Source: a virus
DNA length: 34,721 nucleotides
Direction: 5' to 3' (one strand)
Virus record (IMG/VR): IMGVR_UViG_3300015360_000118
Coordinates: 1 to 34,721 of that record
Part shown: positions 116 to 34,721 of the stretch, piece after piece
Numbering within the stretch: the stretch's first letter is position 1
Layout of the letters: every line of letters starts with the position of its first letter
Translations under genes and position numbers: made by a program
The notes under the pieces: generated by a model
What the model was told of the DNA's origin: nothing
The model's database searches: none
The model's input: the letters and a program-made list of their open reading frames with translations, nothing else

Positions 116-183
116 AAATACTTGGAAATAGTGGATAAGAAAAACCAACCAACCGAGCAAGCGTATGATACAATGTACTTACA

Positions 184-12324: not shown

Positions 12325-13848
12325 ATGGCTTTCCCAACCGGCTATACAAAATATCAAGAAATCACAATAGACTACACAAAAGTAGCTGCCGACCTTACGG
12401 ACTATGTAATTTCAGTAAATCTTGCCGACTTGGTTAAAGCCGGTGCAGATATTTTTGACACTTGCCGGTCCGACGGGGGAGACATACGAGCTACAAAAAC
12501 GGACGGCACAACAGAACTGGCGACGGAGCTTGTAATAATTAACACTACTACAAAAACAGGAGAGTTGTACATTAAATTCACAGGTACACTTTCAAGTTCT
12601 TCAAATACAATAATCCGTATTTACTACAATGGAACCGACACGGCTCTAGCGGCAAGCGCTACTTTCGGAAGAAACAATACGTGGTCCAGTACTCACGATA
12701 TGGTGCACCACTTTCAAGACTCGACCATAAATGCGGTAGCTGGAAATAGCCCAGCTTCTAACACATTCAGTTACGACTCCGCTGGAAAAATAGGAAAGGG
12801 GGTAACACAAACAGCCGGTTCGTCAAGGGGTATGGATTGGGCTTCTTCCATAACTGCAAATACAAGTACCCTTTCGTTTAGTTCATGGTTTAAAACTTCT
12901 GCCAACACTTCCATAGGAGACGGTTCGATGATTTTGTTTATGTACTGCCGCCCGGGTTCACCGTACGAACGATTTTACTTATCTTTGCTTATGGGAGCAA
13001 CATCTGGCGACCGAGGAAAAGTACAGCTGTTTTTAAGAAATAGCTCGGGCGTTTCTCATTTAGTCAATGGTTCTTTGCAGTACAATGATAATACTTGGTA
13101 CAGAGTATCGGGTATTTATGATGGAACAAACTTAAAGACATATATAAACGGAGTTCAGGTTGCTACTCTAGCTGCAACCGGAACAGTCGGTGCTTCTTTC
13201 AAAACCACTCTTGGGACGAGTTGGGACGAATCTACTGCTGGTGTTTGGGTAGGGGAATATGACGAAATGAGATTTTCTGACGCATACGCTTTTTCTGCTA
13301 ATTGGTTGTTAACCGAATATAGAAACCAAAACAGCACAAGTACTTTTTATTCTAGTGGAGCAGAGCTAGGCGGTTCAACAATAGTATCGCCAGCCGTCCA
13401 AGTTATAACAAGTTCTCTACCGGCTCGTTCAGTAAAGGTTGGAGTAGTAGTTCCGATCGCTGCAAAATCTCTTACCTTTTCAATTCCAGCATATGCAGTA
13501 AGTGGTAAGGCTAGGGTTAGCGTAAACGCGCAAACGGCACAATTTACAATTCCTGCTTACGCACTTATTGCCGCCGGAGTCAGTATTGCAGCAAAGGTTC
13601 AAGCCCTTACATTTTCGGTTCCTACTGCCGCTATTCTTTCCGGAGCAACTTTGTACCCCAACACACAGTCGATAACAATTACACTTCCTGCTAGTGCAAC
13701 GACCGGAGCAGCTCGTGTGGGGGTAAATCCAGTCGTGCTTACCCTTACAATACCGACATTAGAGTATGTCGGTGCAATTTGGGGACGTACGGCTCGAGAA
13801 ACTACCGGAGCTGACTGGACGCGATCAATTATTAACAATGACGCATAA
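12325..13848 (+). CDS. Tail fibre/adhesin with DUF2341- and LamG-like domains
   Basis: A 507-residue protein likely to contact the host surface. Residues about 8-115 resemble DUF2341 (YQEITIDYTKVAADLTDYVI, then IIRIYYNGTDT). Residues about 130-345 look like a LamG/concanavalin-type lectin fold, ending with VWVGEYDEMRFSDAYAFSANW and LLTEYRNQNS. From about 355 to 475 come five to six repeats of about 23 residues with the core 'LTFSIPA', alternating with Val/Ala-rich turns. The last 25 residues form a separate tail. LamG domains bind glycans, so receptor binding is the favoured role; which domain attaches to the virion is unknown. Confidence 0.7.
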   Translation: MAFPTGYTKYQEITIDYTKVAADLTDYVISVNLADLVKAGADIFDTCRSDGGDIRATKTDGTTELATELVIINTTTKTGELYIKFTGTLSSSSNTIIRIYYNGTDTALAASATFGRNNTWSSTHDMVHHFQDSTINAVAGNSPASNTFSYDSAGKIGKGVTQTAGSSRGMDWASSITANTSTLSFSSWFKTSANTSIGDGSMILFMYCRPGSPYERFYLSLLMGATSGDRGKVQLFLRNSSGVSHLVNGSLQYNDNTWYRVSGIYDGTNLKTYINGVQVATLAATGTVGASFKTTLGTSWDESTAGVWVGEYDEMRFSDAYAFSANWLLTEYRNQNSTSTFYSSGAELGGSTIVSPAVQVITSSLPARSVKVGVVVPIAAKSLTFSIPAYAVSGKARVSVNAQTAQFTIPAYALIAAGVSIAAKVQALTFSVPTAAILSGATLYPNTQSITITLPASATTGAARVGVNPVVLTLTIPTLEYVGAIWGRTARETTGADWTRSIINNDA

Positions 13849-24800: not shown

Positions 24801-26757
24801 TGTAGAGTTTTTGAAAGAAAACTACCCCGAAGATATTGAAGAAGCCCAATATACCGGTAGTAAAAAAGGACGATTCCCATTACCACCAAAGGGCAGTAAA
24901 AAGGAGCTCAAGCTTATTACTGTATTTGAAAAAGGAAACCTTAAGGGCTACTACGTAGACCCGTACATTGCCGAGACTATTAACAATCAGTCTTACGGAC
25001 AAAATGCGCCATTGGTACCGACTCTACGCTTCTTTAACGGTACTTTCTTTCGACCGCTTTTTATTCAGTTTAACCTCGGCTTTCAGTCGTTTAACTTACT
25101 ACGTGACTTCTGGCGTTTCTGGAAAACAATGCCAGACGCAACAATCTTAAGTTCAATGAAGGCGTATCACAAAGCCGGAAAAGTGGCTCGTTTCCGTGCC
25201 TTTGGTATACCTAAAAACCCAAGCCCAGCCGACCGAGAAGCCATTGCTCTTTACCAGAGAGCAGAAGAAGCCGGTATTCTTTCCCTCACCTTTAATGACA
25301 TTATTTCCGGACGCAACGCCGAAGATAAACAAATTGAAAAGATACTTGCAGATAGTGGTATTAAAGAATTTCAACCAGAACCAAAGTATGAGGACGTGCC
25401 GCGCTTTGCAAAGCCGGTTGTAGAAGTACTTAACAAAGTTGGTATTCTAAAAGTTGCCAGTAAAACGCTAGGCTTTATTGAAAACCTTGGTAACTACATT
25501 GAAACACTACCTAAAGCTGCCGCCGTGTACGAACTTAAAGGTACCGAAGCCGAGTTTCTTACTCGAGAACAAACAAGCTTTATCCGACGTAAAGTAGGTT
25601 CGCCGGACTTTCTTGCCGGAGGAACATACAAGCCAGCCACAAATGAAATATTCCTATTTTCTAACGCGATTATTCAGGGCATTAGATCAGACATAGAAGT
25701 AGCGACCGACCCAACAACCCGCTCCGGATACTGGTGGAAGACAGCAAAACTGAACTTTCTACCTAAAATTATGATGTATGCGGCACTCATGGGACTTTTT
25801 GGGGACGAAGTAAAAGAAATTATGGAAAGTGCAAGCGAGTACGACCGAACCAACTATACTATTATTCCGCTTGGAAAAGACGAGTTTGGAAAAGCTGTAT
25901 ACTTTCGCCTTCCTTCCGACGAAACAGGACGCTTCCTTGGCGCTACTTTCTGGAAAGTATTATCAGCTCCAACTAATGAGCAGCCAATTGGCTCGGATAT
26001 TATGCAAATAATTTCATACACTGGTGGACAAATTCCGTCGGTTACTCCAGTGGTGGAGATAATTAGTGCCACAGCTCAATACATGAGTGGTAAAAACCCT
26101 TACGACTCGTTCCGAGGACGCAATGTACTATCAGATACGTTATTCCAAGCCGGAGGTATGGAAGCCCATAAAGCTTTTCTTGGCTGGCAGTTCCAGCAAC
26201 TCGGAGGTGGTATTTTTTACAAGTTCTACCACGAAGGAACACCGCCAGAGAAAAAGAGTCTTGTCGAAAAAACCTTTAATTTACCGCTTCTTGGTAATGT
26301 TATAGGACGCTTTGTGCGAGTTAGTGACTATGGAAAGCTAGAAGCATTGCGAGAAATTGAAAACAAAGTAAAGACCGAAGAAGCCCAAGCTTCACTTGAA
26401 AAACGCTCAATAGTAAACACTTACACAAAACAAGCGCAAGAAAACGGAGAACTTACAGAAAACCTAGCAAATCAAATGGTACAAGAATATTTTGGAGGAG
26501 AACCAAATGCTTCACAGTATCAAGAAGCAGACCGCTTGAAAGACCGGCTCCGACTCGAAGTAATACGCGGTTCATCAGAAGCCGAGGTGGTAGCCGTTAT
26601 TGACGCAAATACTAATAATCAAAAGGCGGCAATCTTACTGGAGATCGGTAAGACGTCCACTCAAGAGGAGTTTGACAAGCTAATTTCAGACCTACTAAAC
26701 GCCGGTATTATTACCGACGGAACACTTGAAAAGCTCCAAGAGCGTTCACAGCAATAA
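18859..26757 (+). CDS. Giant polyvalent virion protein (ParB-like, metallopeptidase and LPD-type domains)
   Basis: A 2632-residue protein, probably carried in the head and ejected with DNA. It opens with two WDELNK motifs (4-9, 33-38). A glycine/alanine-rich hydrophobic stretch lies near 214-260. About 775-860 (AHEGTSFYPEKRAASHQ, later GAGNFPVERNRKR) and 1020-1050 (MRNKLKSNGWKYSPLNSTWQ) resemble paired modules of conjugative-element proteins. A ParB/sulfiredoxin-like domain around 1345-1410 has DGHHR at 1393-1397. A zinc-peptidase motif HELGH at 1541-1545 is followed by ELYAEA at 1676-1681, a likely third ligand. From 2065, RPLFIQFNLGF and NLLRDFWRFWK recall an LPD38-type domain. Together this is the 'large polyvalent protein' style; enzymatic activity is inferred only. 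Confidence 0.75.
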   Translation: MATWDELNKTYSSAKPEDEKKKDEKISVSSSSWDELNKWGDTQPKAEVQTQTPVATTPTQPKKQNDGNILKSYSKGVQEVVGTSAAFGASGVMRLFGGLQEVALKAIEPANIAAARIGQGLYKGLGLITPDNGKLSKVGDDFYTQMRSGYNQLQEASFEVNRSATNIGNRSRDTLLDKTGFDEYKKDNSGKDFSFSDLKDPKFWLYDVYGTTVENAPIMAATFVVGKGAGMATQGAGVLAWLAGTGGATTFSLGMNASIESQAAYDTAMKSGKSETQALVEAERVFNRNFTANTLSETLQMALLFMPQGDKVKATLPLWKSLIKNASKIIAAGGIEVLQERGENAIQEGASKEDFDWAGFGSALAEKNVTKSDFISFVLGAGMQGVGNVFVDNKQISEEAYDQANEMAAKLWDGGDTPPPTGEAAIAYLEQQRIDNPEGLIAVYKNTVQSRKKFVEDAKALTATNQDGAIQSLPTITAEDGTDLGRIEIKKSGDGFVSRFVGNAGEAGAQTDFDYSNVFNTQEDAAQRATDALIIWAEQERTNANNSPVTQSRLEELIANARVNKKEAPIELPKKEPELPSGLLQAQQILQLLQEQGVSGADVSAAISNTRGQESLGVTQYEGANVLHELKKIQESGGKQKPAPRTEKETKTEVSKPTETKANQKKKVLPSTKKKARADFEKSADDVKPEELVTIQKSVNNGKAKLNKPKTQKDQVKEVIDQKGTASIKDIKETEKQKAKEAKIITKENSTKPKTPKILTITAKPEDIDFELAKRAHEGTSFYPEKRAASHQQSYVEMVNDFALELEPLATSEAQQKIAQNAVDQYAGKLLNGYKAYLEAKSRTISPMISGAGNFPVERNRKRLQTQMKRWDEVVEIQEKAIKYTKKALKEQSVVDRGGAKIVAQDELAQAKASLEMMKSANKIIKNIKLNDEQKVVELVKLPAISTDSARELLKPDYAGRQGFASFSLTSVRGKIKRMEGAVVSKEKNAQEEDRVLLETAGMRIEEHPQDERIRIYFEGKPDAEMRNKLKSNGWKYSPLNSTWQRKNTPNGRYNVKQLFGELQTMEKAVEVEIENVAPVNQSAKLKIVTVKGEDIEQSFLEESDRDVERMNTLLDNAGVTDVTVKSAVVRKDGSFSANMSDGKVWEDTRFADIVASKKPELDKVKLIEDNRKAFKRNYAKLSKAGTKFKSTTKGDFLRPKTKVGKKDLKDFVEVEGEMIFTVIVADSILEGKLNAGSGKYHIYPLHAPEGTKYLYRKTDTGETRLFPSALGLVEENLEEGQLIEFNIEDIKQAGTYYNAINQAGDTVAFQGIPTGESLKKTNGKLPLKNPQTGKLFGSLSPDEWFTVNVDRVIPDSNSMSDAIADLRNGQKSFTGLPILVRDNGEGQYEIIDGHHRFAQALFVDEQQQVVVMTDEVKYKNLNRTELDQTEQGNYSSGGLNASVAFDVPIIDDKGTADPRFDQGSAPLPATMAHLDEINTVEIPELVDIVRELSGKVPEIKKAFRKVGKGGDYNATYNRIRVRADMFRKNNLHNGAKVLAHELGHMIDAVPDGTLNRGNLIGRLLSLRDFMGSTGNPTSGERVTIEQRREVKTNTIKEVQKEFGYKTQKEVLADAKAKIVIKERFKKTMEMVLEKDGFIRDEVIRQELLAATRFWTPYNPAMVPESYRAYRESAVELYAEALSMLYISPRNLARIAPTFYKQFFANLDSKPTVRDAYFEVQSLLAGDRDAVTARRRAGVQQMFKEGELKAMELHKKKLEENKSQKREIWKHLKHKVIDKNFQIIDRVKELEKKGTRLNPDENPVFFLEERNYVGGKIKAIFEKEINPIYQTLTDNEISWEDFGEVLFYERVASGDRSNFANPRGITPDAAVELIAEMRVQLGVKRWLLLREQLANFRAVSKRITKMAYEAGLYKKEMYIKMKKNPAYATFQVLDFLEEGMTSRIYKSVGTFRDIANPADSTLLKMITTIKAAERNVVTQKTVEFLKENYPEDIEEAQYTGSKKGRFPLPPKGSKKELKLITVFEKGNLKGYYVDPYIAETINNQSYGQNAPLVPTLRFFNGTFFRPLFIQFNLGFQSFNLLRDFWRFWKTMPDATILSSMKAYHKAGKVARFRAFGIPKNPSPADREAIALYQRAEEAGILSLTFNDIISGRNAEDKQIEKILADSGIKEFQPEPKYEDVPRFAKPVVEVLNKVGILKVASKTLGFIENLGNYIETLPKAAAVYELKGTEAEFLTREQTSFIRRKVGSPDFLAGGTYKPATNEIFLFSNAIIQGIRSDIEVATDPTTRSGYWWKTAKLNFLPKIMMYAALMGLFGDEVKEIMESASEYDRTNYTIIPLGKDEFGKAVYFRLPSDETGRFLGATFWKVLSAPTNEQPIGSDIMQIISYTGGQIPSVTPVVEIISATAQYMSGKNPYDSFRGRNVLSDTLFQAGGMEAHKAFLGWQFQQLGGGIFYKFYHEGTPPEKKSLVEKTFNLPLLGNVIGRFVRVSDYGKLEALREIENKVKTEEAQASLEKRSIVNTYTKQAQENGELTENLANQMVQEYFGGEPNASQYQEADRLKDRLRLEVIRGSSEAEVVAVIDANTNNQKAAILLEIGKTSTQEEFDKLISDLLNAGIITDGTLEKLQERSQQ

Positions 26758-26885
26758 TGGAAAAACTAAAATACGCACTTAAAGATATATGGAGCGAGTT
26801 TGTTAAAACCGTACGTATGCTTTATTGGGTACTAATTTTTCTGGCTATTTTTCTTCCTTTCAGCACTACTTTCTGGACGTCTTAA
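26757..26885 (+). CDS. Small single-pass membrane protein
   Basis: A 42-residue protein whose ATG overlaps the giant gene's stop (TAATG), so translation is probably coupled. A basic amphipathic N-terminus (MEKLKYALKDIWSEFVKTVR) precedes a hydrophobic segment at about 22-38 (LYWVLIFLAIFLPFS). Its place at the entrance to the lysis block suggests a lysis helper or a membrane component acting with the giant protein; neither is shown. Confidence 0.5.
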   Translation: MEKLKYALKDIWSEFVKTVRMLYWVLIFLAIFLPFSTTFWTS

Positions 26886-26898
26886 AATGTGGATAACT

Positions 26899-26949
26899 AG
26901 GCAAGCGGGCAAGCGGTACGGTATACTTAAAGAGTGACCCCAAGTCACT
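26899..26949 (+). promoter_or_regulatory. Tandem GGCAAGCG repeat, possible promoter of the lysis genes
   Basis: AGGCAAGCGGGCAAGCG at 26899-26915 is identical to the repeat in the promoters at 29003 and 33797. Here the flanking hexamers are altered: AACTAG replaces TTGTAG and the nearest -10-like TATACT (26922-26927) is four bases further away. Initiation near 26934 would put the hairpin AGTGAC/GTCACT (26933-26949, 5-base loop) at the 5' end of the RNA. Confidence 0.5.
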
Positions 26950-26969
26950 TAAAAGTAATTAAAAATAAA

Positions 26970-27326
26970 ATGAAGAAACTTATTATTGTCGCCGTCGCCG
27001 TAGCAATTCTAGGTGGGTTTGGACTTTATGGAGGTAAAGTTACGGAGTTCTTAAAAAATGAAACCGTGGTTGTGAACAATAACGTACCCAAAACAGTCAC
27101 AAAGACTGAACGGGTAGATAACTTGGAAGTTCTTATTGAGGAAGCCCAAGACGAAGCGAGAACAAAAATTGAAGCAGACGCAGAAGTAGCCTACGAAAAA
27201 GAGGTTGCGGAAGCCAAAGCAACGCAGGATAAATACATTGCCGACGAGTTGGTAAAAGTCTCCGATAAGGTAAAGGAAGACTATATTGCCGAGATCGAAG
27301 CAACCATTAGTACTGCCAGTTATTGA
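26970..27326 (+). CDS. Spanin-like membrane-anchored coiled-coil protein
   Basis: A 118-residue protein with an N-terminal hydrophobic anchor (about 3-20, after MKK) and an outside part that is almost wholly charged helix from about 45 to 112 (LEVLIEEAQDEARTKIEADAEVAYEKEVAEAKATQ). This matches the layout of inner-membrane spanins such as Rz, and it lies in the lysis block. No matching outer-membrane lipoprotein partner is seen, and if the host has no outer membrane another role is needed. The ATG at 26970 follows an A-rich leader; a GTG at 26934 in the same frame would sit inside the 5' hairpin. Confidence 0.5.
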   Translation: MKKLIIVAVAVAILGGFGLYGGKVTEFLKNETVVVNNNVPKTVTKTERVDNLEVLIEEAQDEARTKIEADAEVAYEKEVAEAKATQDKYIADELVKVSDKVKEDYIAEIEATISTASY

Positions 27327-27350
27327 ACTGTAAGCCGGTTACAACGACTC

Positions 27351-27659
27351 ATGCGGCAGAAAGCGGAAGAATACGGAACAAACTACTACACCATGAAGTC
27401 AATTGTAAACTGCGAAAGTGGCTATGCCGTAGACGTGCAATCAAAGCATGTTTACACTGCCACGAACGCACCGCGCGGCTACAAACAAGGAGACAGGGAG
27501 CAATCATATGGACTTGTACAAATTCACGTACCAGTCCATGACGTGACCATAGAACAAGCAATTCAACCAGTTTTTGCAGTAGAATTTCTCGCTAAACACA
27601 TGGCACAAGGGCAAGCGAGTATGTGGAGCTGTTATAATGAACTTGCAATTAACAGTTAA
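27351..27659 (+). CDS. Lysozyme-like/lytic transglycosylase protein
   Basis: A 102-residue protein with the core of the lysozyme-like SLT family: catalytic Glu in the NCESG motif (Glu22) and SYGLVQIH at 52-59, then a helix ending ASMWSCYNE. It should cut the glycan strands of peptidoglycan. It is short compared with the usual 130-180 residues and has no signal peptide, so it could be a minimal endolysin that needs the holin. Cys21 and the CY near the end could form a disulphide. Similar short forms are familiar to me from Patescibacteria. Its last codons contain an extended -10 candidate for the holin gene. Confidence 0.7.
   Translation: MRQKAEEYGTNYYTMKSIVNCESGYAVDVQSKHVYTATNAPRGYKQGDREQSYGLVQIHVPVHDVTIEQAIQPVFAVEFLAKHMAQGQASMWSCYNELAINS
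27630..27638 (+). promoter_or_regulatory. Extended -10 promoter candidate inside the lysozyme gene
   Basis: TGT followed by TATAAT (27633-27638), the same 9-mer as at 3982 and 4898. It lies 31 bases before the holin-like start. A single GGCAAGCG (27610-27617) lies just upstream. The bases also encode Cys-Tyr-Asn of the lysozyme-like protein, so chance is possible. Confidence 0.35.
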
Positions 27660-27669
27660 AAACAAATTT

Positions 27670-27942
27670 ATGGAAGGAGATTTAGTTACACAATTCTTGA
27701 GTATTGGTATCGTGGGAGCGGCGCTCTCATACTTCACACAATGGCTTCAAGAAAAGTATGGAGTAGGTGGAAACGAAACCAGAGTAATTGCGATAGCTGG
27801 CTCCGTCTTGCTTGGTGCATTAGTATGGTTTTTACAAGGAACCGAAGTGTGGGCTTCTATTATTGGAGTTCTTGCGTCTGCTTCAACCGTATACGCCATG
27901 ATTTTTAGTGGCAAACGGACTAAAGATCGTGAGGACGCATGA
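27670..27942 (+). CDS. Holin-like membrane protein
   Basis: A 90-residue protein with hydrophobic segments at about 8-24, 38-56 and 61-79 and a strongly charged C-terminus (GKRTKDREDA), the topology of a class I holin. I chose the ATG at 27670; an in-frame upstream ATG would overlap the lysozyme gene. It lies between the lysozyme-like gene and the amidase, whose start overlaps its stop (ATGA). It should open or disable the membrane to release or activate the two wall enzymes. Confidence 0.75.
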   Translation: MEGDLVTQFLSIGIVGAALSYFTQWLQEKYGVGGNETRVIAIAGSVLLGALVWFLQGTEVWASIIGVLASASTVYAMIFSGKRTKDREDA

Positions 27943-28487
27943 GTAAGATAAACGTACCAAAGTGGCTTATTGTCCACCATACCGGCGGAACCGACGCAAG
28001 TCCGCGGGCTGACACGTCACACCATACATTTGAAATTGTCGATAATTACCATAGGGGACTATGGAATTTTCGCAGTTCTCTTGGTCACTATATTGGCTAC
28101 CACTACTTTATTGATAAAAATGGTAAAGTAACGCAGGGACGCGCAGATACAGAAGAAGGCGCCCACACTAAAGGAATGAACCTTAAAAGTATTGGCGTTG
28201 CTCTCGCTGGCAACTTTGACGCAACGCTACCCACAGCAGAGCAGACAGAAGCGCTTACAGAACTACTTAAAGAACTTTCTATTAAGTACACAATACCGGT
28301 TACGAATATCGTGCCACACCGAATGTTTGCAAACAAAACTTGCTACGGCAACAAACTTGGCAATAAATGGGCAGCAGATTTAGTGAAGGTGGACAATAAG
28401 GGCTCACTTTCTCAATTTACTCTAACGGAATTGTTTGTTGAAATTCAAAAGCGAATTGAAGCTATGAAAAAGGGATTGGTTACGTAA
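27939..28487 (+). CDS. N-acetylmuramoyl-L-alanine amidase (endolysin, Amidase_2 type)
   Basis: A 182-residue zinc amidase that should cut between muramic acid and the stem peptide. The T7-lysozyme pattern is complete: VHHTGG with zinc ligand His13, catalytic Tyr54 in GYHYFID, GAHTKGMN at 75-81, GVALAGNFD at 86-94, His127 in PHR, and Lys133 with zinc ligand Cys135 in NKTCYG. It has no signal peptide, so it depends on the holin. Its start overlaps the holin stop. The stop codon sits inside the hairpin GGTTAC/GTAACC (28478-28493). About 30 extra helical C-terminal residues might bind the wall. Confidence 0.93.
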   Translation: MSKINVPKWLIVHHTGGTDASPRADTSHHTFEIVDNYHRGLWNFRSSLGHYIGYHYFIDKNGKVTQGRADTEEGAHTKGMNLKSIGVALAGNFDATLPTAEQTEALTELLKELSIKYTIPVTNIVPHRMFANKTCYGNKLGNKWAADLVKVDNKGSLSQFTLTELFVEIQKRIEAMKKGLVT

Positions 28488-28496
28488 GTAACCCTT

Positions 28497-28590
28497 CCTA
28501 CAGGGCACACAAGAGTTCTTTCAACAACATAAATGCTAAAAAGTGTAACCTCGAAATCAAAAATTCATAAAAACTTGTGTGCCGTGTAGG
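28497..28590 (+). ncRNA. Long inverted repeat, possible structured RNA
   Basis: GGCACACAAG (28504-28513) pairs perfectly with CTTGTGTGCC (28574-28583). After a 2x2 loop, CCTAC (28497-28501) pairs with GTAGG (28586-28590), giving 15 bp around a 60-base A-rich loop. A small hairpin GGTTAC/GTAACC lies directly before it at the end of the amidase gene. The loop has no open frame of note. It could end or stabilise the late lysis transcript or be a small RNA; no reverse transcriptase is present, so a retron is not supported. Confidence 0.5.
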
Positions 28591-28602
28591 GAGCAATAAC
28601 AA

Positions 28603-28611
28603 TGCTATTAT
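28603..28611 (+). promoter_or_regulatory. Extended -10 promoter candidate
   Basis: TGC followed by TATTAT (28606-28611), with initiation expected near 28618, shortly before a strong Shine-Dalgarno sequence and a 57-codon gene. The same TGCTATTAT string occurs at 4307. Confidence 0.35.
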
Positions 28612-28634
28612 AAGAGAAGGTCGCCAACTAACCC

Positions 28635-28643
28635 AAAGGAGGA
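28635..28643 (+). promoter_or_regulatory. Strong Shine-Dalgarno sequence
   Basis: AAAGGAGGA with five bases between GGAGG and the ATG at 28648. It is notable because almost no virion gene in this window has a Shine-Dalgarno sequence, and it supports the short gene that follows. Confidence 0.75.
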
Positions 28644-28647
28644 GAAA

Positions 28648-28821
28648 ATGGACAATGACCAGCCAGCCCTTCCACTCGACGAACGCTTCCGCCAAGCCGA
28701 GCAGCTTGCGCTTGAACTTCCCGAACCGAAAGGGAAACAACCGCCGCCACCGGACTTCAAAAAAGAAGAATCGTGCGGCAGAGTTGGGTTCTGCTACTGC
28801 CCGAAGTGTAACCCGCGATGA
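28648..28821 (+). CDS. Small cysteine-motif protein
   Basis: A 57-residue protein with a perfect ribosome-binding site. The first half is acidic and helical (LDERFRQAEQLALELPEP), followed by a QPPPPDF stretch and a C-terminal cysteine cluster: Cys43, Cys49, Cys51 and Cys54 (GFCYCPKCNPR), probably binding one zinc ion. It looks richer in G+C than its neighbours, which may mark a different origin. Its TGA overlaps the ATG of the next small gene (ATGA). Function unknown; adaptor or inhibitor roles are typical for such small phage zinc proteins. Confidence 0.65.
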   Translation: MDNDQPALPLDERFRQAEQLALELPEPKGKQPPPPDFKKEESCGRVGFCYCPKCNPR

Positions 28822-28937
28822 AAAGGTGTAAACGAGGATTGGCTCTTATAGCCATAATCGTTTGCATACCAATATATATATGGTTTGCACTTATAATCTA
28901 CATAGAAGTCGAGAAAGGAGGTGATCTAGTATCTTGA
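28818..28937 (+). CDS. Tiny membrane protein
   Basis: A 39-residue protein coupled to the preceding gene by an ATGA overlap. Basic start (MKRCKRG), then a hydrophobic segment at about 8-28 (LALIAIIVCIPIYIWFALIIY), then an acidic tail with EKGGDLVS. The codons for the tail contain the 15-base complement of the 16S rRNA 3' end, so this short gene doubles as carrier of that element. No family is recognised. Coupling and membrane character support it being real. Confidence 0.5.
   Translation: MKRCKRGLALIAIIVCIPIYIWFALIIYIEVEKGGDLVS
28912..28926 (+). promoter_or_regulatory. Full-length complement of the 16S rRNA 3' tail
   Basis: AGAAAGGAGGTGATC is the perfect complement of a 16S 3' end reading GATCACCTCCTTTCT, far longer than a normal Shine-Dalgarno match. 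The only start in range is a TTG at 28934 that opens a 24-codon frame running through the terminator. Nine of its bases (28912-28920) can also pair with CTCCTTTCT at 28977-28985, the descending arm of that terminator, giving a competing structure. Confidence 0.6.
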
Positions 28938-28938
28938 C

Positions 28939-28986
28939 TGCTAGGAACAGACTAGCAAGGAGCCTACTAACACGGGCTCCTTTCTT
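28939..28986 (+). terminator. Tandem hairpins ending in a probable terminator
   Basis: TGCTAG/CTAGCA forms 28939-28957. Next to it AAGGAGCC (28957-28964) pairs with GGCTCCTT (28975-28982) around a 10-base loop, followed by TCTTATT. The T tract is imperfect but the 8-bp GC-rich stem supports termination. It separates the lysis side from the promoter at 29003. Confidence 0.65.
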
Positions 28987-29002
28987 ATTATCCACATTTT
29001 AC

Positions 29003-29031
29003 TTGTAGGCAAGCGGGCAAGCGTGTATAAT
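29003..29031 (+). promoter_or_regulatory. Promoter of the recombination operon with tandem repeat spacer
   Basis: TTGTAG (29003-29008) and TATAAT (29026-29031) lie 17 bp apart. The spacer holds two direct copies of GGCAAGCG (29008-29015 and 29016-29023). Spacing and -10 are ideal, and the -35 keeps TTG. The same arrangement recurs at 33797. Repeats lying between the two hexamers are well placed for a repressor to block RNA polymerase. Confidence 0.8.
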
Positions 29032-29076
29032 AACCGAGGTCGATAACAAATTATTGGAGGTATAAAAATTGAAATT

Positions 29077-29235
29077 GTGAGCAAAACAAAAAAAAGCAAA
29101 AAAGAAATGTCTGAGTATATGAGCAATCTAGGTCGCAAAGGCGGCAAGAAAACAGCAGAGCGTGGAAAGGAATATTTCTCAAAGATTGGCAAGAAAGGGT
29201 ACGATTCCCTAGCAAAAAAGAAAAGCTCTCAATAA
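29077..29235 (+). CDS. KGG-motif protein
   Basis: A 52-residue basic protein (from GTG) with two KGG-type repeats: LGRKGGKKTAERGKEYFSKIG and KKGYDSL. These occur in small stress-type and phage proteins thought to bind nucleic acid. GGAGG at 29056-29060 is 16 bases before the GTG but 7 bases before an in-frame ATT at 29068, so a rare ATT start giving three more residues is possible. It is the first gene after the promoter at 29003, so it should be made early. Confidence 0.65.
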   Translation: MSKTKKSKKEMSEYMSNLGRKGGKKTAERGKEYFSKIGKKGYDSLAKKKSSQ

Positions 29236-29242
29236 TACGCAT

Positions 29243-29419
29243 ATGAACCTAGCAAATAGTCCAATTACGTTTTTGTCACTGTTCCGAAAATACGGTGGCA
29301 ATATTAAAAACGCACACGTGCTGGAGCTACGTGCAGCAGCACAAGCACTTCCACCGCACCAGAACGCTTTACAAGCTTTCTCCGCAGCGGGTAAGCAGTA
29401 CAGACGTGAGCAAAAATAA
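29243..29419 (+). CDS. Hypothetical small basic protein
   Basis: A 58-residue protein, largely helical (VLELRAAAQALPPHQNALQAF) with a basic end (GKQYRREQK). It starts 7 bases after the KGG gene and is followed within 10 bases by the next gene, so it is in the early operon. No family is recognised. Intact frame and tight spacing support it. Confidence 0.5.
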   Translation: MNLANSPITFLSLFRKYGGNIKNAHVLELRAAAQALPPHQNALQAFSAAGKQYRREQK

Positions 29420-29429
29420 TCTAGCAATT

Positions 29430-29684
29430 ATGAAAAACGAAGCAATATTATGTGGGTTCGCTCTTGCTCTACTAGCAACCGGACTTGTTTTGGCACAACT
29501 CAAAACAACCGAACTAACAAATACTAACGACTTAAACATAGACGGGGTAGTAAATTTTACTGATTTTTCTATTGCTCTCGACCGAGTAAATCAAGTGAAA
29601 ATGGAAATTAGTAACCAACAAGAGAAAGCCAATGTTATAGAAGAAGTCTACCCAGACGTACCACCTTATTCACCTAGTAACTAA
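29430..29684 (+). CDS. Membrane-anchored protein with a dockerin-like calcium loop
   Basis: An 84-residue protein. I chose the ATG at 29430 because upstream in-frame starts overlap the neighbour. A hydrophobic segment at about 5-22 acts as signal peptide or anchor. Residues 34-45 (DLNIDGVVNFTD) match the calcium-binding loop of type I dockerins (DxNxDGxVNxxD), present once where true dockerins have two. The tail (EVYPDVPPYSPSN) is proline-rich. Such loops are frequent in exported proteins of Patescibacteria. A display or adhesion role is possible; why it sits in the recombination operon is unclear. Confidence 0.55.
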   Translation: MKNEAILCGFALALLATGLVLAQLKTTELTNTNDLNIDGVVNFTDFSIALDRVNQVKMEISNQQEKANVIEEVYPDVPPYSPSN

Positions 29685-29687
29685 CCC

Positions 29688-30539
29688 ATGAACAACGTCG
29701 CCAAAGAATTAGAGACAACCGCCGAAATCATAGAAGTAACGGAACCAAGAACAATCCAGACGCACTACCAAGATAATTCAATCGAAAGTTTTATTAGTGC
29801 TGCAATCGCACAACAACTACCAATTGAAACCATTAAAGAGTTCTTGGTAATGAGAAAAGAACTAAAGGCAGACCAAGCAAAAGAATCCTTTACAATCGCA
29901 ATGGCACAGTTTCAAAAAGACTGTCCCGTGATCGCAAAGACCAAAGAAGTGAAGAACAAGGAAGGGAAAGTTACGTACCGGTATGCGCTGCTTGACTCTA
30001 TTATTATTCAAGTGAAAGACGTACTTGGAGAAAATAAGCTTTCGTATGATTTTAGTGAAGCTAGGAACAAAGAAGACGGGACAATGACGGTAACGTGTAC
30101 TATCACGCACTCGCTCGGTCACACTAAAAGCAGTTCTTTCACTGTAGAAATCGGAACCGAAGCGTACATGACTGATGTACAAAAACACGGCGCTCGCAAC
30201 ACTTTTGCCAAGCGATACGCTTTTATTAACGTTCTCGGTATTGTTACTGGAGACGAAGACACTGACGCAAAAGAAATTTTGAGTCCGGAGGACAAGAAGC
30301 AAGCCGCCAAAGAAGAACTGCAAAACAGGGACGTATCAATGGAGCTTTCTGTAATCAGTAGTTGCAAAGACTTGGAGTCACTCAAGCGTATTTGGATTGG
30401 ATTGTCTCCAGCACAACGCGAGAATGAAAAGCTTATCGAAGTAAAAGAGACAATGAAAATTAAACTCGAACAGGACGCAGCCGAAGAAGGCGAGCAAAAA
30501 GAAGAAGCGGGCAACGAGGTAAGCGATAAGAAATCTTAA
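29688..30539 (+). CDS. erf: ERF-family single-strand annealing protein
   Basis: A 283-residue protein that should anneal complementary single strands during phage recombination. The ERF core spans about 35-195: SFISAAIAQQLPIETIKEFL, KESFTIAMAQFQKDCPVI, then YALLDSIIIQVKDVLGENKLSY, and the signature QKHGARNTFAKRYAFINVLGI at 166-186, followed by GDEDTDA. The last 80 residues are an acidic helical tail typical of annealing proteins. The YqaJ nuclease starts one base after its stop, making a two-component recombination pair like Red or RecET. Confidence 0.92.
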   Translation: MNNVAKELETTAEIIEVTEPRTIQTHYQDNSIESFISAAIAQQLPIETIKEFLVMRKELKADQAKESFTIAMAQFQKDCPVIAKTKEVKNKEGKVTYRYALLDSIIIQVKDVLGENKLSYDFSEARNKEDGTMTVTCTITHSLGHTKSSSFTVEIGTEAYMTDVQKHGARNTFAKRYAFINVLGIVTGDEDTDAKEILSPEDKKQAAKEELQNRDVSMELSVISSCKDLESLKRIWIGLSPAQRENEKLIEVKETMKIKLEQDAAEEGEQKEEAGNEVSDKKS

Positions 30540-30540
30540 T

Positions 30541-31281
30541 ATGAGAATACTAGAATTAGAGCAGGGCTCCGAGGAGTGGCTAAAAGCCAGAGAGGGTAAA
30601 ATTACCGGCACAAAGCTTAAGGAGGTAGCCAGCGCAAGTACCCCGTTAAAAGCTGACATCATAAACGAGCTCGACAAAAGCAGTCTTCTTTATAAGAAGA
30701 CTGCCACAATCCCCCAACTTATGGCGTTATTACCACCGGCAGCGCAGCAAATGTTGAAGTCTCGAATTCCAAAAAAACTTGGTTTTTATGAAATTCTTGC
30801 CGAAAAAATTGCTTACGAAAAAGGGGACGCAAATCCTATGGACAGAGGAACCGAACTTGAGCCAGAAGCTCGAGCAGCCGTAGCAGCAAAGCTTAATAAA
30901 GAAATTGTAGAAGTAGGTATTTGTGTGCATGATAAACACGATGATATATCTGTTTCTCCCGACGGACTCATTTACGAAAAAGACAAGCCCGTGTATGCAG
31001 TAGAGATTAAGTGTCTATCAACCGCTCGCCACCTACAAGCCCTTGTTGAGCAAAAAATTCCTGATGATTATAAGTTTCAAGTGTTGCAATACTTCATTGT
31101 AATTGACGAACTGGAGGTGCTTTTCTTCTCGTTTTACGACCCCCGTATTGTAGGACACGAACTTGTAATTATTGAAGTTCACCGAGACGAAGTACAAAAA
31201 GAAGTGGAGCAGTGGTTCAACTACCAAGTGGAAACTCTTGCCGAAATCAATGATTTAGCAACTTTATACAGCAATTATTAA
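30541..31281 (+). CDS. YqaJ-like exonuclease
   Basis: A 246-residue PD-(D/E)XK nuclease expected to resect DNA ends for the ERF protein. Visible family blocks: GSEEWLKAREGKITGTKL at 9-26, DRGTELEPEAR at 101-111, SPDGLI with Asp141, VEIK at 154-157 (Glu155, Lys157) and FQVLQYF at 179-185. These supply the metal-binding and catalytic residues, so it looks active. It is coupled with the ERF gene and followed by a coiled-coil gene at one base distance. Confidence 0.9.
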   Translation: MRILELEQGSEEWLKAREGKITGTKLKEVASASTPLKADIINELDKSSLLYKKTATIPQLMALLPPAAQQMLKSRIPKKLGFYEILAEKIAYEKGDANPMDRGTELEPEARAAVAAKLNKEIVEVGICVHDKHDDISVSPDGLIYEKDKPVYAVEIKCLSTARHLQALVEQKIPDDYKFQVLQYFIVIDELEVLFFSFYDPRIVGHELVIIEVHRDEVQKEVEQWFNYQVETLAEINDLATLYSNY

Positions 31282-31282
31282 C

Positions 31283-31741
31283 ATGGAACTTTCAGTGAGG
31301 AGCGTTTTAGAGGTTTTTGTCCCAATTGTGGCAGAACTTAAAGCCCTAGCAAAACAAGCTCAAGAGGTGGACGTGACAAATGAAAGAGAGGTAAACAATT
31401 GCAGACTAGAACTTAAAAATAAACGAGTCGAAATAACAAAAAAGTGCAAAGAGTATCGAGACGGCGCCAACGCTTTCTCCTTGGCAATTACTGCCTTTGA
31501 GAAAGAACTTATAGAAATTATTGAACCACAGAAGGAGATCGAAGCCGAAGCTGCCGTACAAGAAGTAGAAAAAATCAAGAAGCGAGAGCGAGCAGAAAAG
31601 TACAAGTCTTTTCGAGCAGAGTTTGGTTGGACAGAGGAAAGAGCTGTCCACTTCTACGAGAAGGTAGAAGTGGACAGAAGTGGAGAACGTGTCATTTTAT
31701 TCAAAAGGGTTGGTGAGTTTAACCTTTATTTGTTGGAATAA
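31283..31741 (+). CDS. Coiled-coil protein, DUF1351-like
   Basis: A 152-residue protein dominated by a long helix from about 14 to 115 (VAELKALAKQAQEVDVTNER, LELKNKRVEITKKCKEYRDG, EKELIEIIEPQKEIEAEAA). Its layout resembles DUF1351 proteins, which often lie beside annealing protein and nuclease genes in phages. A role as partner in recombination is inferred from that context. The C-terminal 35 residues form a small strand-rich end (VILFKRVGEFNLYLLE). Confidence 0.55.
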   Translation: MELSVRSVLEVFVPIVAELKALAKQAQEVDVTNEREVNNCRLELKNKRVEITKKCKEYRDGANAFSLAITAFEKELIEIIEPQKEIEAEAAVQEVEKIKKRERAEKYKSFRAEFGWTEERAVHFYEKVEVDRSGERVILFKRVGEFNLYLLE

Positions 31742-31744
31742 TTT

Positions 31745-32221
31745 ATGGCAAAAGAAGGCGCAAAAAGAACCGAATTGTTCACTATCCTTGGAGAATTTAA
31801 GGAGGTTCATAATAAAGAAACCGGCTATAACGAAGCTCGCTTTGTGCCTAAAAGTACAAAACACTTCCGGACTATGTCTTACGGTGCGCCGAAGAACAAA
31901 TTGATCGCGGCAACTTTCTACAACACTGTTTCCAGCCGCTCACGTAACCAAGTCGCGTATCACTTTGTTTTATTGGGGTATATAGCTAAATATACTGGCT
32001 ATACGGTCGATGAGCTCCACGACGCTACAATGCGCATAGTGTTTGGAACAAAAGTAATCAAGCTAAACGGTGAAGAAATAACAGTTCGAAAAAGCTTAAG
32101 CACCACTGCAAATCTTCCAAAATATGAAGCAGTAGAGCTTATTGAGTACGACTTGGAGCTTTGCAAGCAATTAGAAATAAAGGTACCGACCAAGGAGGAG
32201 CTTGGCTACGTGTCCGATTAA
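31745..32221 (+). CDS. NinB/Orf-like recombination protein (tentative)
   Basis: A 158-residue protein. Residues about 66-95 (SRNQVAYHFVLLGYIAKYTGYTVDELHD) followed by KSLSTTANLPKYEAVELIEY and LEIKVPTKEEL match a phage pattern I associate with NinB/Orf-type recombination mediators: Q-x-x-Y, a helix, 'TGYT.DELH', then 'ST..L....'. Such proteins load annealing proteins on single strands, which fits a place between ERF/YqaJ and replication genes. The exact family is uncertain. Confidence 0.5.
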   Translation: MAKEGAKRTELFTILGEFKEVHNKETGYNEARFVPKSTKHFRTMSYGAPKNKLIAATFYNTVSSRSRNQVAYHFVLLGYIAKYTGYTVDELHDATMRIVFGTKVIKLNGEEITVRKSLSTTANLPKYEAVELIEYDLELCKQLEIKVPTKEELGYVSD

Positions 32222-32230
32222 CAGTTCCCT

Positions 32231-32689
32231 ATGAGTGAGAAGAAATCTAGCGAAGAAATAAAGCACCAGCTCTCTCTACTCCGTTGGCTTATGTCACAGC
32301 CTAGTCCAAGGGCAGCAATAGAAAAAGCGCATAAATTGCTCATGGAATTACAAGTAGTCAAAATTGAAAAGGACGAAGACTATACTGCCGAGTTTTTGGA
32401 GTATTGGGCAGTCTACCCAAAGAAGGTAGGAAAAGGAGACGCATACCGAAAGTGGCAAACACTCGTAAAAAGCGAGAAGAAAAAAGAACAGATTATTGCC
32501 AGTGTTCAGCAGCACAAAGGTACGACACGTTGGAAAGAAGAAGACGGTAAATATATTCCTAACCCCGCGACGTTTTTGCACCAGAAACGTTTTGACGACG
32601 AAATAACGACGCCAGAACAAAAAATAGAGCCAAAATTCCGTTATGAGTACGACGCCGCCAGTAATAGTGTTAAAGAAATTCCTATATGA
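32231..32689 (+). CDS. Replication-organiser-like protein
   Basis: A 152-residue protein. Residues 55-76 (FLEYWAVYPKKVGKGDAYRKW) and 108-123 (YIPNPATFLHQKRFDD) are the paired signatures of the C-terminal domain found in many phage replisome organisers and DnaT-like helicase loaders. The usual N-terminal winged-helix origin-binding domain is missing or reduced to about 45 helical residues, so it may recruit the host helicase without binding an origin alone. Its TGA overlaps the ATG of the nuclease gene. Confidence 0.65.
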   Translation: MSEKKSSEEIKHQLSLLRWLMSQPSPRAAIEKAHKLLMELQVVKIEKDEDYTAEFLEYWAVYPKKVGKGDAYRKWQTLVKSEKKKEQIIASVQQHKGTTRWKEEDGKYIPNPATFLHQKRFDDEITTPEQKIEPKFRYEYDAASNSVKEIPI

Positions 32690-33105
32690 CAAATGCAAAA
32701 AAGAAGGGCAATGTATGGGAAAACAAGCTTGCTAATTGGCTTCGTAGCCACGGTTTCAAGGCTACAAAAGACCCTTCCAGTGGCTCTCACTCGGAACGAG
32801 GGGACATTGTGAACAACATGAACCTCACTATTGAAAGTAAATCATGCAAAAAAGTAAGTCTCATGGAGTGGTGGAAACAGGTGGACTACGCCGCCAGCCA
32901 GCAAAGGAACGAGCCGTGCTTATTTATTCACATTGACGGTATGTCGGACAACGAGTGGCTTGTAGTAATGCACTCCGAAGATTGGATTGAACACATGAAA
33001 GCAGACGATAATGTAGAGCAAACTTATCAAGACCCCAAAGCGAAGTACGCTCTTAATAATGCACGAGAAGCGTTACGAGTCGCTCTTAAGTACCTAGAAT
33101 TATGA
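32686..33105 (+). CDS. PD-(D/E)XK nuclease, Holliday-junction-resolvase-like
   Basis: A 139-residue protein with the layout of small archaeal-type Hjc resolvases: Glu12 in KGNVWENKLANWLRSHGF, Asp40 in SERGDIV, and Glu50-x-Lys52 in LTIESKS, followed by a helix MEWWKQVDYAA. All active-site residues are present. It should cut branched DNA formed by recombination before packaging. Coupled by ATGA overlaps to both neighbours. A restriction-like nicking function is the alternative. Confidence 0.75.
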   Translation: MTNAKKKGNVWENKLANWLRSHGFKATKDPSSGSHSERGDIVNNMNLTIESKSCKKVSLMEWWKQVDYAASQQRNEPCLFIHIDGMSDNEWLVVMHSEDWIEHMKADDNVEQTYQDPKAKYALNNAREALRVALKYLEL

Positions 33106-33476
33106 ATGAAGAAGATTATAAAATTGTTGAAGCAATGGAAAGAACTAGCAAAATGAACAACATAAACGCCATAAATGCCGAGACGCGGCTTAAAGCACAG
33201 TCTCAACAGACTGACGACCACTTGGCAGCAATACTTATCGCAGTCTATTCTATGCCACCAGAAGCCCGTACGCCGGTGCTGGAGAAGTATTATCACAATC
33301 TACAGACAATGATGGAAGCACGAGTAAAGAAAGCGCTTATAGCGAGCATAAACCCTTGCCAAGTGTGCCAAGGAGACGGTTATATCGACATTGACGGCGA
33401 CGCTGGCGAGCATGGTTGGGATAAAATAGGAGAAAAGCCTTGTCCGTTGTGTTACCCAGAATTTAAAAAGGAATAA
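33102..33476 (+). CDS. Zinc-finger protein of unknown function
   Basis: A 124-residue protein. The first 80 residues are helical. The C-terminus has a DnaJ-like zinc site: CQVCQGDGYIDIDGD (Cys86, Cys89) and CPLC (Cys114, Cys117). The CxxCxGxG spacing is that of a single DnaJ cysteine-rich knuckle. It is coupled to the nuclease gene. It may bind DNA or a replication partner; no enzyme motif is seen. Confidence 0.6.
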   Translation: MNEEDYKIVEAMERTSKMNNINAINAETRLKAQSQQTDDHLAAILIAVYSMPPEARTPVLEKYYHNLQTMMEARVKKALIASINPCQVCQGDGYIDIDGDAGEHGWDKIGEKPCPLCYPEFKKE

Positions 33477-33478
33477 AT

Positions 33479-33625
33479 ATGAGTTGGAAAGAATATTACG
33501 CCGGAGTGCGGTTTATAAAAAACACTTCCGGCACAGGAGGAGAAGCCGTACACCGACTTAAAGAGTGGAAAAAACATGCTCTACCGTTAGTAAATCAGAA
33601 GCTTAATCAAGAGCAATATGTTTGA
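33479..33625 (+). CDS. Hypothetical small basic protein
   Basis: A 48-residue protein starting two bases after the zinc-finger gene (TAAATATG). Basic and helical in its second half (AVHRLKEWKKHALPLVNQKL). Its last codons overlap the start of the next gene by eight bases. No family is recognised. Tight packing on both sides supports it. Confidence 0.5.
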   Translation: MSWKEYYAGVRFIKNTSGTGGEAVHRLKEWKKHALPLVNQKLNQEQYV

Positions 33626-33794
33626 GTTTCTCATGCCTATTTTTACGACATTTCTCGTAACAACAACCGGCTTTACTGTAGACCTAGAAGAAGGGCACAA
33701 GTATGAATTTATACGTACCTCGACCAGTACAGCAGCCGTCTACGTCGACCAGAAGCTCCAGTATACGCTCACAGAAGGAGTTATAAACAGGTAG
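33618..33794 (+). CDS. Hypothetical small exported or structural protein
   Basis: A 58-residue protein. The first 20 residues are moderately hydrophobic (FEFLMPIFTTFLVTTTGF) and could be a weak signal sequence. The rest is strand-rich (YEFIRTSTSTAAVYVDQKLQYTL). It ends three bases before the promoter at 33797, closing the recombination operon. No family is recognised. Confidence 0.45.
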   Translation: MFEFLMPIFTTFLVTTTGFTVDLEEGHKYEFIRTSTSTAAVYVDQKLQYTLTEGVINR

Positions 33795-33796
33795 TC

Positions 33797-33825
33797 TTGT
33801 AGGCAAGCGGGCAAGCGTGTATAAT
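33797..33825 (+). promoter_or_regulatory. Promoter of the regulator operon with tandem repeat spacer
   Basis: TTGTAG (33797-33802) and TATAAT (33820-33825), 17 bp apart, with GGCAAGCG twice between them. From the -35 through the -10 it is identical to the promoter at 29003. The surrounding sequence differs, so the element itself is conserved. Initiation near 33832 would place a hairpin at the 5' end. Confidence 0.8.
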
Positions 33826-33830
33826 GTAAC

Positions 33831-33849
33831 TAGTTTCAGTAAGAAACTA
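33831..33849 (+). other. 5'-terminal RNA hairpin
   Basis: TAGTTTC (33831-33837) pairs with GAAACTA (33843-33849) around AGTAA. It starts about six bases after the -10 hexamer, at the expected transcript start, where it would protect the RNA 5' end. A comparable hairpin with a 5-base loop follows the repeat at 26899. Confidence 0.5.
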
Positions 33850-33908
33850 TCGGAAGCTTTGTAAGTGACGAAGGTAAAAAAATTAACGGGGTATGTAAAT
33901 GTGTAGAC

Positions 33909-33980
33909 ATGAACGAACTACTCGTTGTACTTCACACACTAGACGCAGAATATTTAGTAGAACTTAAAAAAATTACATAA
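33909..33980 (+). CDS. Possible 23-residue peptide
   Basis: A very short frame (MNELLVVLHTLDAEYLVELKKIT) after the promoter and hairpin, with its stop in a TAATATG junction to the next small gene. GGGG at 33889-33892 is too far for a ribosome site. It is supported only by the junction and by filling the gap; it could be a leader peptide. Confidence 0.3.
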   Translation: MNELLVVLHTLDAEYLVELKKIT

Positions 33981-33981
33981 T

Positions 33982-34077
33982 ATGACCATTTCAGACAAAG
34001 TCACCATTGCAATAATTGCTCTTTTCCCACTTTATTTGATCGCTCGTACCCTTACCACGACGTTTACTTTGTCTTAA
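33982..34077 (+). CDS. Tiny membrane peptide
   Basis: A 31-residue peptide with one hydrophobic segment (TIAIIALFPLYLIARTL at about 8-24) and short polar ends. It starts in a TAATATG junction and ends 11 bases before the next gene. Tiny membrane peptides are common in phage early regions, but no family is recognised. Confidence 0.4.
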   Translation: MTISDKVTIAIIALFPLYLIARTLTTTFTLS

Positions 34078-34088
34078 CTACAACACCG

Positions 34089-34484
34089 ATGAGTAAAAAA
34101 ATTAGTTTAAACTTTGAACCAAAAGTGACTAAGATACCAAGCGTGGAGGAGAGGGTGGATAAAGTATTTCAAGAAGTAATGGCTGACATAGGAAAACACT
34201 ACAAAGTAAGTGACAGGCTATCCGACATTTTAAGCGACAGTCTTAGTGAAAGACTTGCCCAAACCCTCACCGCAGACCGCACCGCCCTACTGACCGAGCT
34301 GAGGGATAGTGGACTGTTGGAAGAAAAGCCAGTAAATATCTGTGGTTTTAATTTTAAAGGAGTCACTGTGGAAACAGAGGATGCTGTTGAGATTATTTTT
34401 GCGTATGAAAAGATAGGTCACAACACCCTAGCCAGAGCAATCAAAGCCCGCCTCGATGAACTTATTAAAATAAATAATGTATGA
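34089..34484 (+). CDS. Hypothetical helical protein
   Basis: A 131-residue protein. A repetitive serine/aspartate helix (VSDRLSDILSDSLSERLAQTL, about 41-60) may form a coiled coil, and a C-terminal domain contains a strand pair (NICGFNFKGVTVET) and a helix (GHNTLARAIKARLDELI). It is coupled by ATGA to the XRE/HigA-like gene. That arrangement could be a regulator pair or a toxin-antitoxin-like pair, but the protein shows no HigB/RelE motif, so this stays open. Confidence 0.5.
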   Translation: MSKKISLNFEPKVTKIPSVEERVDKVFQEVMADIGKHYKVSDRLSDILSDSLSERLAQTLTADRTALLTELRDSGLLEEKPVNICGFNFKGVTVETEDAVEIIFAYEKIGHNTLARAIKARLDELIKINNV

Positions 34485-34720
34485 CAAAACAAGTTACACC
34501 ATTGGAGTATATTGAGTACGTTATGGAACAAATGGGCTGGAACCAGAGGGATTTATTAAAAATGGGATGCAATAATCAGCAAAGCCACATCTCCGAAATG
34601 CTCAGCGGAAAAAGACGGTTAAATATAAAATTTATTAGAGTCTTCTTAGAGCAAAGTCATAGAATGAGTATGGCCTACATGCTCTTGGCAGATTATAAAC
34701 TTATTAAATCCACTAAATAA
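34481..34720 (+). CDS. XRE/HigA-like helix-turn-helix regulator
   Basis: A 79-residue protein with an XRE-type DNA-binding domain: PLEYIEYVMEQMGWNQRDLL, the recognition part QQSHISEMLSGKRRLN at about 33-48 and a closing helix (KFIRVFLEQ). The N-terminal LEYI and the ISEMLSGKRRLN string are those of HigA-type antitoxins and related phage regulators. It could bind the GGCAAGCG repeat promoters, one of which drives its own operon. That link is an inference. The stop codon ends one base before the window edge. Confidence 0.8.
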   Translation: MTKQVTPLEYIEYVMEQMGWNQRDLLKMGCNNQQSHISEMLSGKRRLNIKFIRVFLEQSHRMSMAYMLLADYKLIKSTK

Positions 34721-34721
34721 C

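Follow-up and report, generated by a model that had tools for sequence, protein, structure and literature searches.

In phage 21, the Q binding element (QBE) at PR' is built of direct-repeat 6-bp TGAGCA subsites, in which the C:G pairs that were tested, at -21 and -13, are 8 bp apart; two Q protomers make the contacts, each from a different helical face (PMC6606751). Here we describe a direct repeat of the same 8-bp period, or a single copy of its box, at the promoters of the main operons of an uncultured phage, represented by IMG/VR record IMGVR_UViG_3300015360_000118, the whole 34,721-nt stretch of which is referred to below as the window. Further systems that bear comparison are the lambda CII sites, TTGCN6TTGC, whose half-sites flank the -35 element with a 10-bp period and lie on one face of the helix, the 8-bp met boxes of MetJ, and the sites of the FtsK/SpoIIIE gamma domain, namely the FtsK orienting polar sequences (KOPS, GGGNAGGG) and the SpoIIIE recognition sequences (SRS, GAGAAGGG).

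Two promoters of the window, one ahead of a recombination operon and one ahead of a regulator operon, had been noted in a sequence-only reading as identical from -35 through -10, and this was confirmed by an exact 29-bp match: TTGTAGGCAAGCGGGCAAGCGTGTATAAT was found at 29003-29031 and at 33797-33825, carrying GGCAAGCG twice in tandem with TG-TATAAT, between unrelated flanks, and without any further copy in the window within 3 mismatches (shuffles expect 0). The same reading had described the 17-bp spacer as an 8-mer repeated twice plus two bases; the tandem 8-mer stands, and the spacer itself is GCAAGCG+GGCAAGCG+TG, because the final base of the proposed -35 (TTGTAG) already belongs to the repeat. 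Two more sites had been missed, a third tandem copy ahead of the lysis genes, where the gap to the -10 is 6 bp as against 2 bp at the other two, and a single-box version, CCGAGCAAGCG, ahead of the small terminase gene (Table 1). Operator sites precede the packaging/structural, lysis, recombination and regulator operons, all on the + strand, which supports the proposed co-regulation of the recombination and regulator operons and extends it to the lysis and terminase/structural operons. The box GGCAAGCG occurs 8 times in the window (0.95 expected), every time on the + strand, and perfect tandem 8-mers of more than two different letters are confined to the three tandem operators. Single GGCAAGCG copies at 12651 and 27610 are intragenic and were set aside, the latter having a TATAAT 15 bp downstream and not being retained in the relative G001; a search of Rfam gave no match.

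To see how these sites fare elsewhere, we relied on relatives retrieved with the capsid (80 related contigs) and with the two short genes behind the recombination promoter (one further relative), while a search of an annotated phage collection gave no near match to the window. Three relatives contain the regulatory regions, G001 (IMGVR_UViG_3300048592_000495), G052 (IMGVR_UViG_3300007538_006564) and G008 (IMGVR_UViG_3300025717_000004), and a fourth, G007, contributes the terminase site only. When 50 of the capsid relatives were searched, allowing 3 mismatches at most, the tandem repeat was found in G001 alone, the others giving no match or scattered 3-mismatch matches, and many of them being fragments that lack these regions.

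Presence of the repeat at orthologous promoters had been set beforehand as the test: G001 and G052 retain it there, and G008 has a substitute at the same positions. G001 carries GGCAAGCG twice at its lysis and recombination genes, AGCAAGCG+GGCAAGCG at its regulator operon and CCGAGCAAGCG at its terminase, so that its tandem operators are letter-identical to those of the window at two promoters and one base off at the third. G052 has the same four sites, mostly as GCGAGCG (GGCGAGCG-type) boxes, A being replaced by G in the two boxes of every tandem operator alike; its lysis operator can be read in either register because the boxes run on with a 4-bp period. In G008 a partly palindromic GAGC/GCTC operator stands at the lysis, recombination and terminase promoters, as in AGCGAGC-C-GCTCGCT, which fills a TTGACA-17-TACACT spacer. 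The tandem operators of the window, G001 and G052 have matching bases at box position 4, A in the pair or G in the pair (9/9); otherwise only position 1 varies, between A and G, positions 2, 3 and 5-8 being the same throughout. Judged from these comparisons, the concerted change is what selection by one binding specificity would leave, and the boxes are best read as the operator for one trans-acting factor, since relatives carry the element at orthologous operons, changed or replaced in place. On the same evidence we take the sites for a genuine and conserved phage regulon whose operator is clearly defined. The 29-bp identity of the two window promoters could also stem from recent copying of a promoter cassette in which the repeat has no regulatory role; their unrelated flanks, the recurrence of the layout in three relatives and the paired A/G changes of G052 disfavour this, and we hold it to be very improbable.

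The promoters follow two layouts, which sort by operon function in 4/4 phages. At the recombination and regulator promoters, the operator lies in the -35/-10 spacer and ends 1-2 bp before the -10, and the -35-like hexamers range from TTGTAG, which is weak with its 3 mismatches to TTGACA, to a perfect TTGACA at 17-18 bp in two spacer-type promoters, that of the G052 regulator operon and that of the G008 recombination operon. At the lysis and terminase promoters there is no -35, the operator stops short of the -10 by 5-13 bp, according to where its end is set, and an extended -10 is found in 5/5 terminase and 2/4 lysis promoters. Of the three promoters that carry a tandem operator, a plain sigma-70 scan (26500-34721) listed only that of the lysis operon, which is put down to -35 elements that are weak or missing. 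The distance from the -10 to the terminase start codon is 8-9 bp in 5/5 phages, and the small-terminase mRNA is therefore probably leaderless or nearly so.

The explanation we put first, if tentatively, is that a single sequence-specific transcription factor, most likely of the repressor type, has the repeat as its operator and acts over all main operons. Two protomers or dimers would probably occupy adjacent boxes at an 8-bp offset and so wind round the helix. Where the operator takes up the spacer, as at the recombination and regulator promoters, RNA polymerase would be kept out by the bound factor; at the lysis and terminase promoters the operator lies approximately where sigma region 4 would sit, and the effect would most likely be repression too. 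As in a repressor regulon, one operator recurs at several promoters and overlaps promoter elements, with the same pattern in G001 and G052, and the perfect TTGACA of the two spacer-type promoters named above means that an activator should not be needed there, which fits repression from the spacer. It is at the lysis and terminase promoters that a different account comes closest, in which one factor represses the recombination and regulator operons from the spacer and activates lysis and terminase genes from the position of the missing -35. The segregation of the two layouts by operon function in four phages, the upstream shift of the operator and the extended -10 elements all agree with such a dual role; a distance of about 5 to 13 bp from operator to -10, varying between promoters, would be unusual for a contact activator, however, and extended -10 promoters can work without a -35. 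We consider a dual-role switch fairly unlikely as an account of the whole, though at these two kinds of promoter it competes seriously with repression.

Table 1. Positions of operator boxes, promoter elements and DnaA-box-like sites in the window
Feature	Position	Strand	Remarks
Single-box operator CCGAGCAAGCG, small-terminase promoter	153..163	+	CCGAGCRAGCG also in G001, G007, G052
Extended -10 (TGA-TACAAT), small-terminase promoter	169..174	+	9 bp ahead of ATG at 184
AGTGGATAA, one mismatch to DnaA-box-like site	130..138	+	at -51 of small-terminase promoter
Tandem operator GGCAAGCG twice, lysis promoter	26900..26915	+	kept in G001 at 29100-29115
Putative -10 TATACT, lysis promoter	26922..26927	+	no -35
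TGTGGATAA, DnaA-box-like	26888..26896	+	starts at about -46 of lysis promoter; also ahead of lysis promoter in G001, G052, G008
Tandem operator GGCAAGCG twice, recombination promoter spacer	29008..29023	+	same in G001; GCGAGCG-type in G052
Putative -10 TATAAT, recombination promoter	29026..29031	+	weak -35 TTGTAG at 29003-29008
TTATCCACA, DnaA-box-like, reversed orientation	28988..28996	+	at -50 of recombination promoter; 1-2-mismatch versions at orthologues
Tandem operator GGCAAGCG twice, regulator promoter spacer	33802..33817	+	AGCAAGCGGGCAAGCG in G001, GGCGAGCG twice in G052
Putative -10 TATAAT, regulator promoter	33820..33825	+	weak -35 TTGTAG at 33797-33802
Degenerate box TTATAAACA, regulator promoter	33781-33789

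The sequence-only reading had regarded 8-bp direct repeats within a spacer as an odd operator, a view that the precedent of the phage 21 element weakens (PMC6606751). The likeness, an 8-bp-period direct repeat in a promoter spacer, applies at the recombination and regulator promoters and not at the lysis and terminase ones; unlike the QBE, which serves one late promoter, the element described here stands at all main operons, and its boxes lie several bp further upstream. This precedent raises the possibility of a Q-type antitermination loading site, at which protomers would bind the spacer repeat, join a paused polymerase and allow read-through of the long operons. The GAGCAA of the phage 21 element resembles the GRGCAA of the boxes, and the pause signal could be provided by an AGGTCGAWA box that follows the -10 of the recombination promoter, and of that promoter only, in 4/4 phages (29037-29045 in the window, among the first transcribed bases). 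However, the boxes are displaced upstream as stated, the terminase mRNA would be almost leaderless, and the proteins scanned gave no match to a Q family in Pfam, PHROGs or NCBIfam, a negative qualified by the lack of any sequence similarity between Q21 and lambda Q (PMC11150451). A zinc-motif protein (33102-33476) was considered as a Q candidate and rejected, as it has no Q match in Pfam, NCBIfam or solved structures and no recognisable helix-turn-helix, and was not found in G008. On balance, we regard a Q-type site as improbable.

The other systems match in part as well. The reverse complement of the repeat, TTGCN4TTGC, recalls the direct TTGC repeats of lambda CII in phage promoters, which differ in their 10-bp period flanking the -35, and no CII-like protein was found here. 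With the operators of ribbon-helix-helix proteins (ParG and omega, both type Ib centromere-binding proteins, and MetJ) the element shares an inverted half-site in G008 where the other phages have a direct one; unlike in those systems, no ribbon-helix-helix protein was recognised in profile scans of the window proteins tested, and no partition genes were seen. Like the FtsK/SpoIIIE sites, the boxes are G-rich 8-mers with a purine at position 2 (GRGCRAGC), differing from them at 2-3 positions, and the small terminase of G001 (L137:1486-2376) has an FtsK gamma DNA-binding domain at its start (Pfam E 1e-23). This terminase was rejected as the binder, the window terminase lacking the gamma domain though its operator is the same.

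As to the factor that we suppose to act as a repressor, the protein encoded at 34481-34720, which shows weak helix-turn-helix matches, had been suggested as the binder. We found no homolog of it in G001, G008 or G052 even by a lax search, and because these three relatives share the element, with G001 keeping the operator itself, it is unlikely to be the factor: going by sequence, it would explain the shared operator only if the relatives used another protein. Outside structure and lysis, the only proteins clearly common to all four phages are those encoded at 29077-29235 and 29243-29419, both small and basic and forming the first two genes behind the recombination promoter. The former is KGG-like, is 88% identical in G001 and is predicted as a single helix; the latter is predicted with three helices at a pLDDT (predicted local distance difference test score) of 87, and gave weak matches only (best Foldseek E about 4; VIA Z at most 3.6, with 3.2 for a homeodomain and 2.0 for the StbA DNA-binding domain). 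Several points weigh against the reading put first: no DNA-binding protein is convincingly common to all four phages, neither of these two small proteins has a predicted structure in which a DNA-binding fold can be made out convincingly, and the scan of window proteins brought up no classical phage repressor or integrase.

That the operator is common to the relatives and a phage regulator is not could also mean that a host protein reads the boxes, the phages either exploiting it or being silenced by it, with TGTGGATAA as a host DnaA site. Sites resembling a DnaA box accompany the promoters (Table 1): TGTGGATAA or its complement, with at most one mismatch and its first base at -46 to -62, is present upstream at 10/16 promoters, and equally sized random windows, coding DNA included, have one in 1-2% of cases. 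Only two copies in the window are perfect, and each of these (26888 and 28988) is at one of the promoters. In an unrelated phage contig, L167, TGTGGATAA and a GCAAGCG box likewise precede a promoter, possibly by chance, and a small gene resembling 29077-29235 follows that promoter. The change of the operator in step within each phage speaks against a host reader, as does the absence of the exact class A promoter from the genomes of 84,980 species, a search with one exact string in a set from which the host may be missing. A host search with the major capsid protein gave two contigs, one in a Bacteroidia and one in a Verrucomicrobiota metagenome-assembled genome, either of which may be misbinned. 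We think a host reader quite unlikely. It is likewise doubtful, if conceivable, that the main operons bear a composite control region, in which a host DnaA box near -50 would be joined to the phage-specific 8-bp-period operator, so that one factor would flip the whole programme with its timing tied to the replication state of the host.

Several features of the surrounding sequence were recorded alongside. The genes behind the lysis promoter (26970-28487) include an amidase and a weak spanin-like match, and the operon behind the recombination promoter encodes ERF and YqaJ recombination proteins. A peptide deformylase-like protein (1732-2370, Pfam E 1e-6) adjoins the terminase genes and is conserved in most relatives. 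Short, modest hairpins lie at the expected 5' ends of the regulator (33832-33848) and lysis (26934-26948) transcripts, the former being retained in G001 with different bases. Just ahead of the recombination promoter, 28915-28982 contains AAAGGAGGTGATC, which we take to be a perfect complement of the 16S rRNA 3' end, followed by a hairpin and a terminator; the stretch folds well (z -3.5), and its hairpin shows a compensated change, GCTAG/CTAGC in the window and GGTAG/CTACC in G001.

Phage operators as such, and QBE-like direct repeats in promoters, are known already, and the operator described here is a variant of these. What it offers is a testable promoter map, four main operons under one operator, for an uncultured phage group, and, in the in-step change between phages (GGCAAGCG, GGCGAGCG, palindromic GAGC/GCTC), a natural specificity series for finding the factor. 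Should that factor turn out to be Q-like or to have a dual role, 8-bp direct repeats inside promoters would be known from a wider range of uses.
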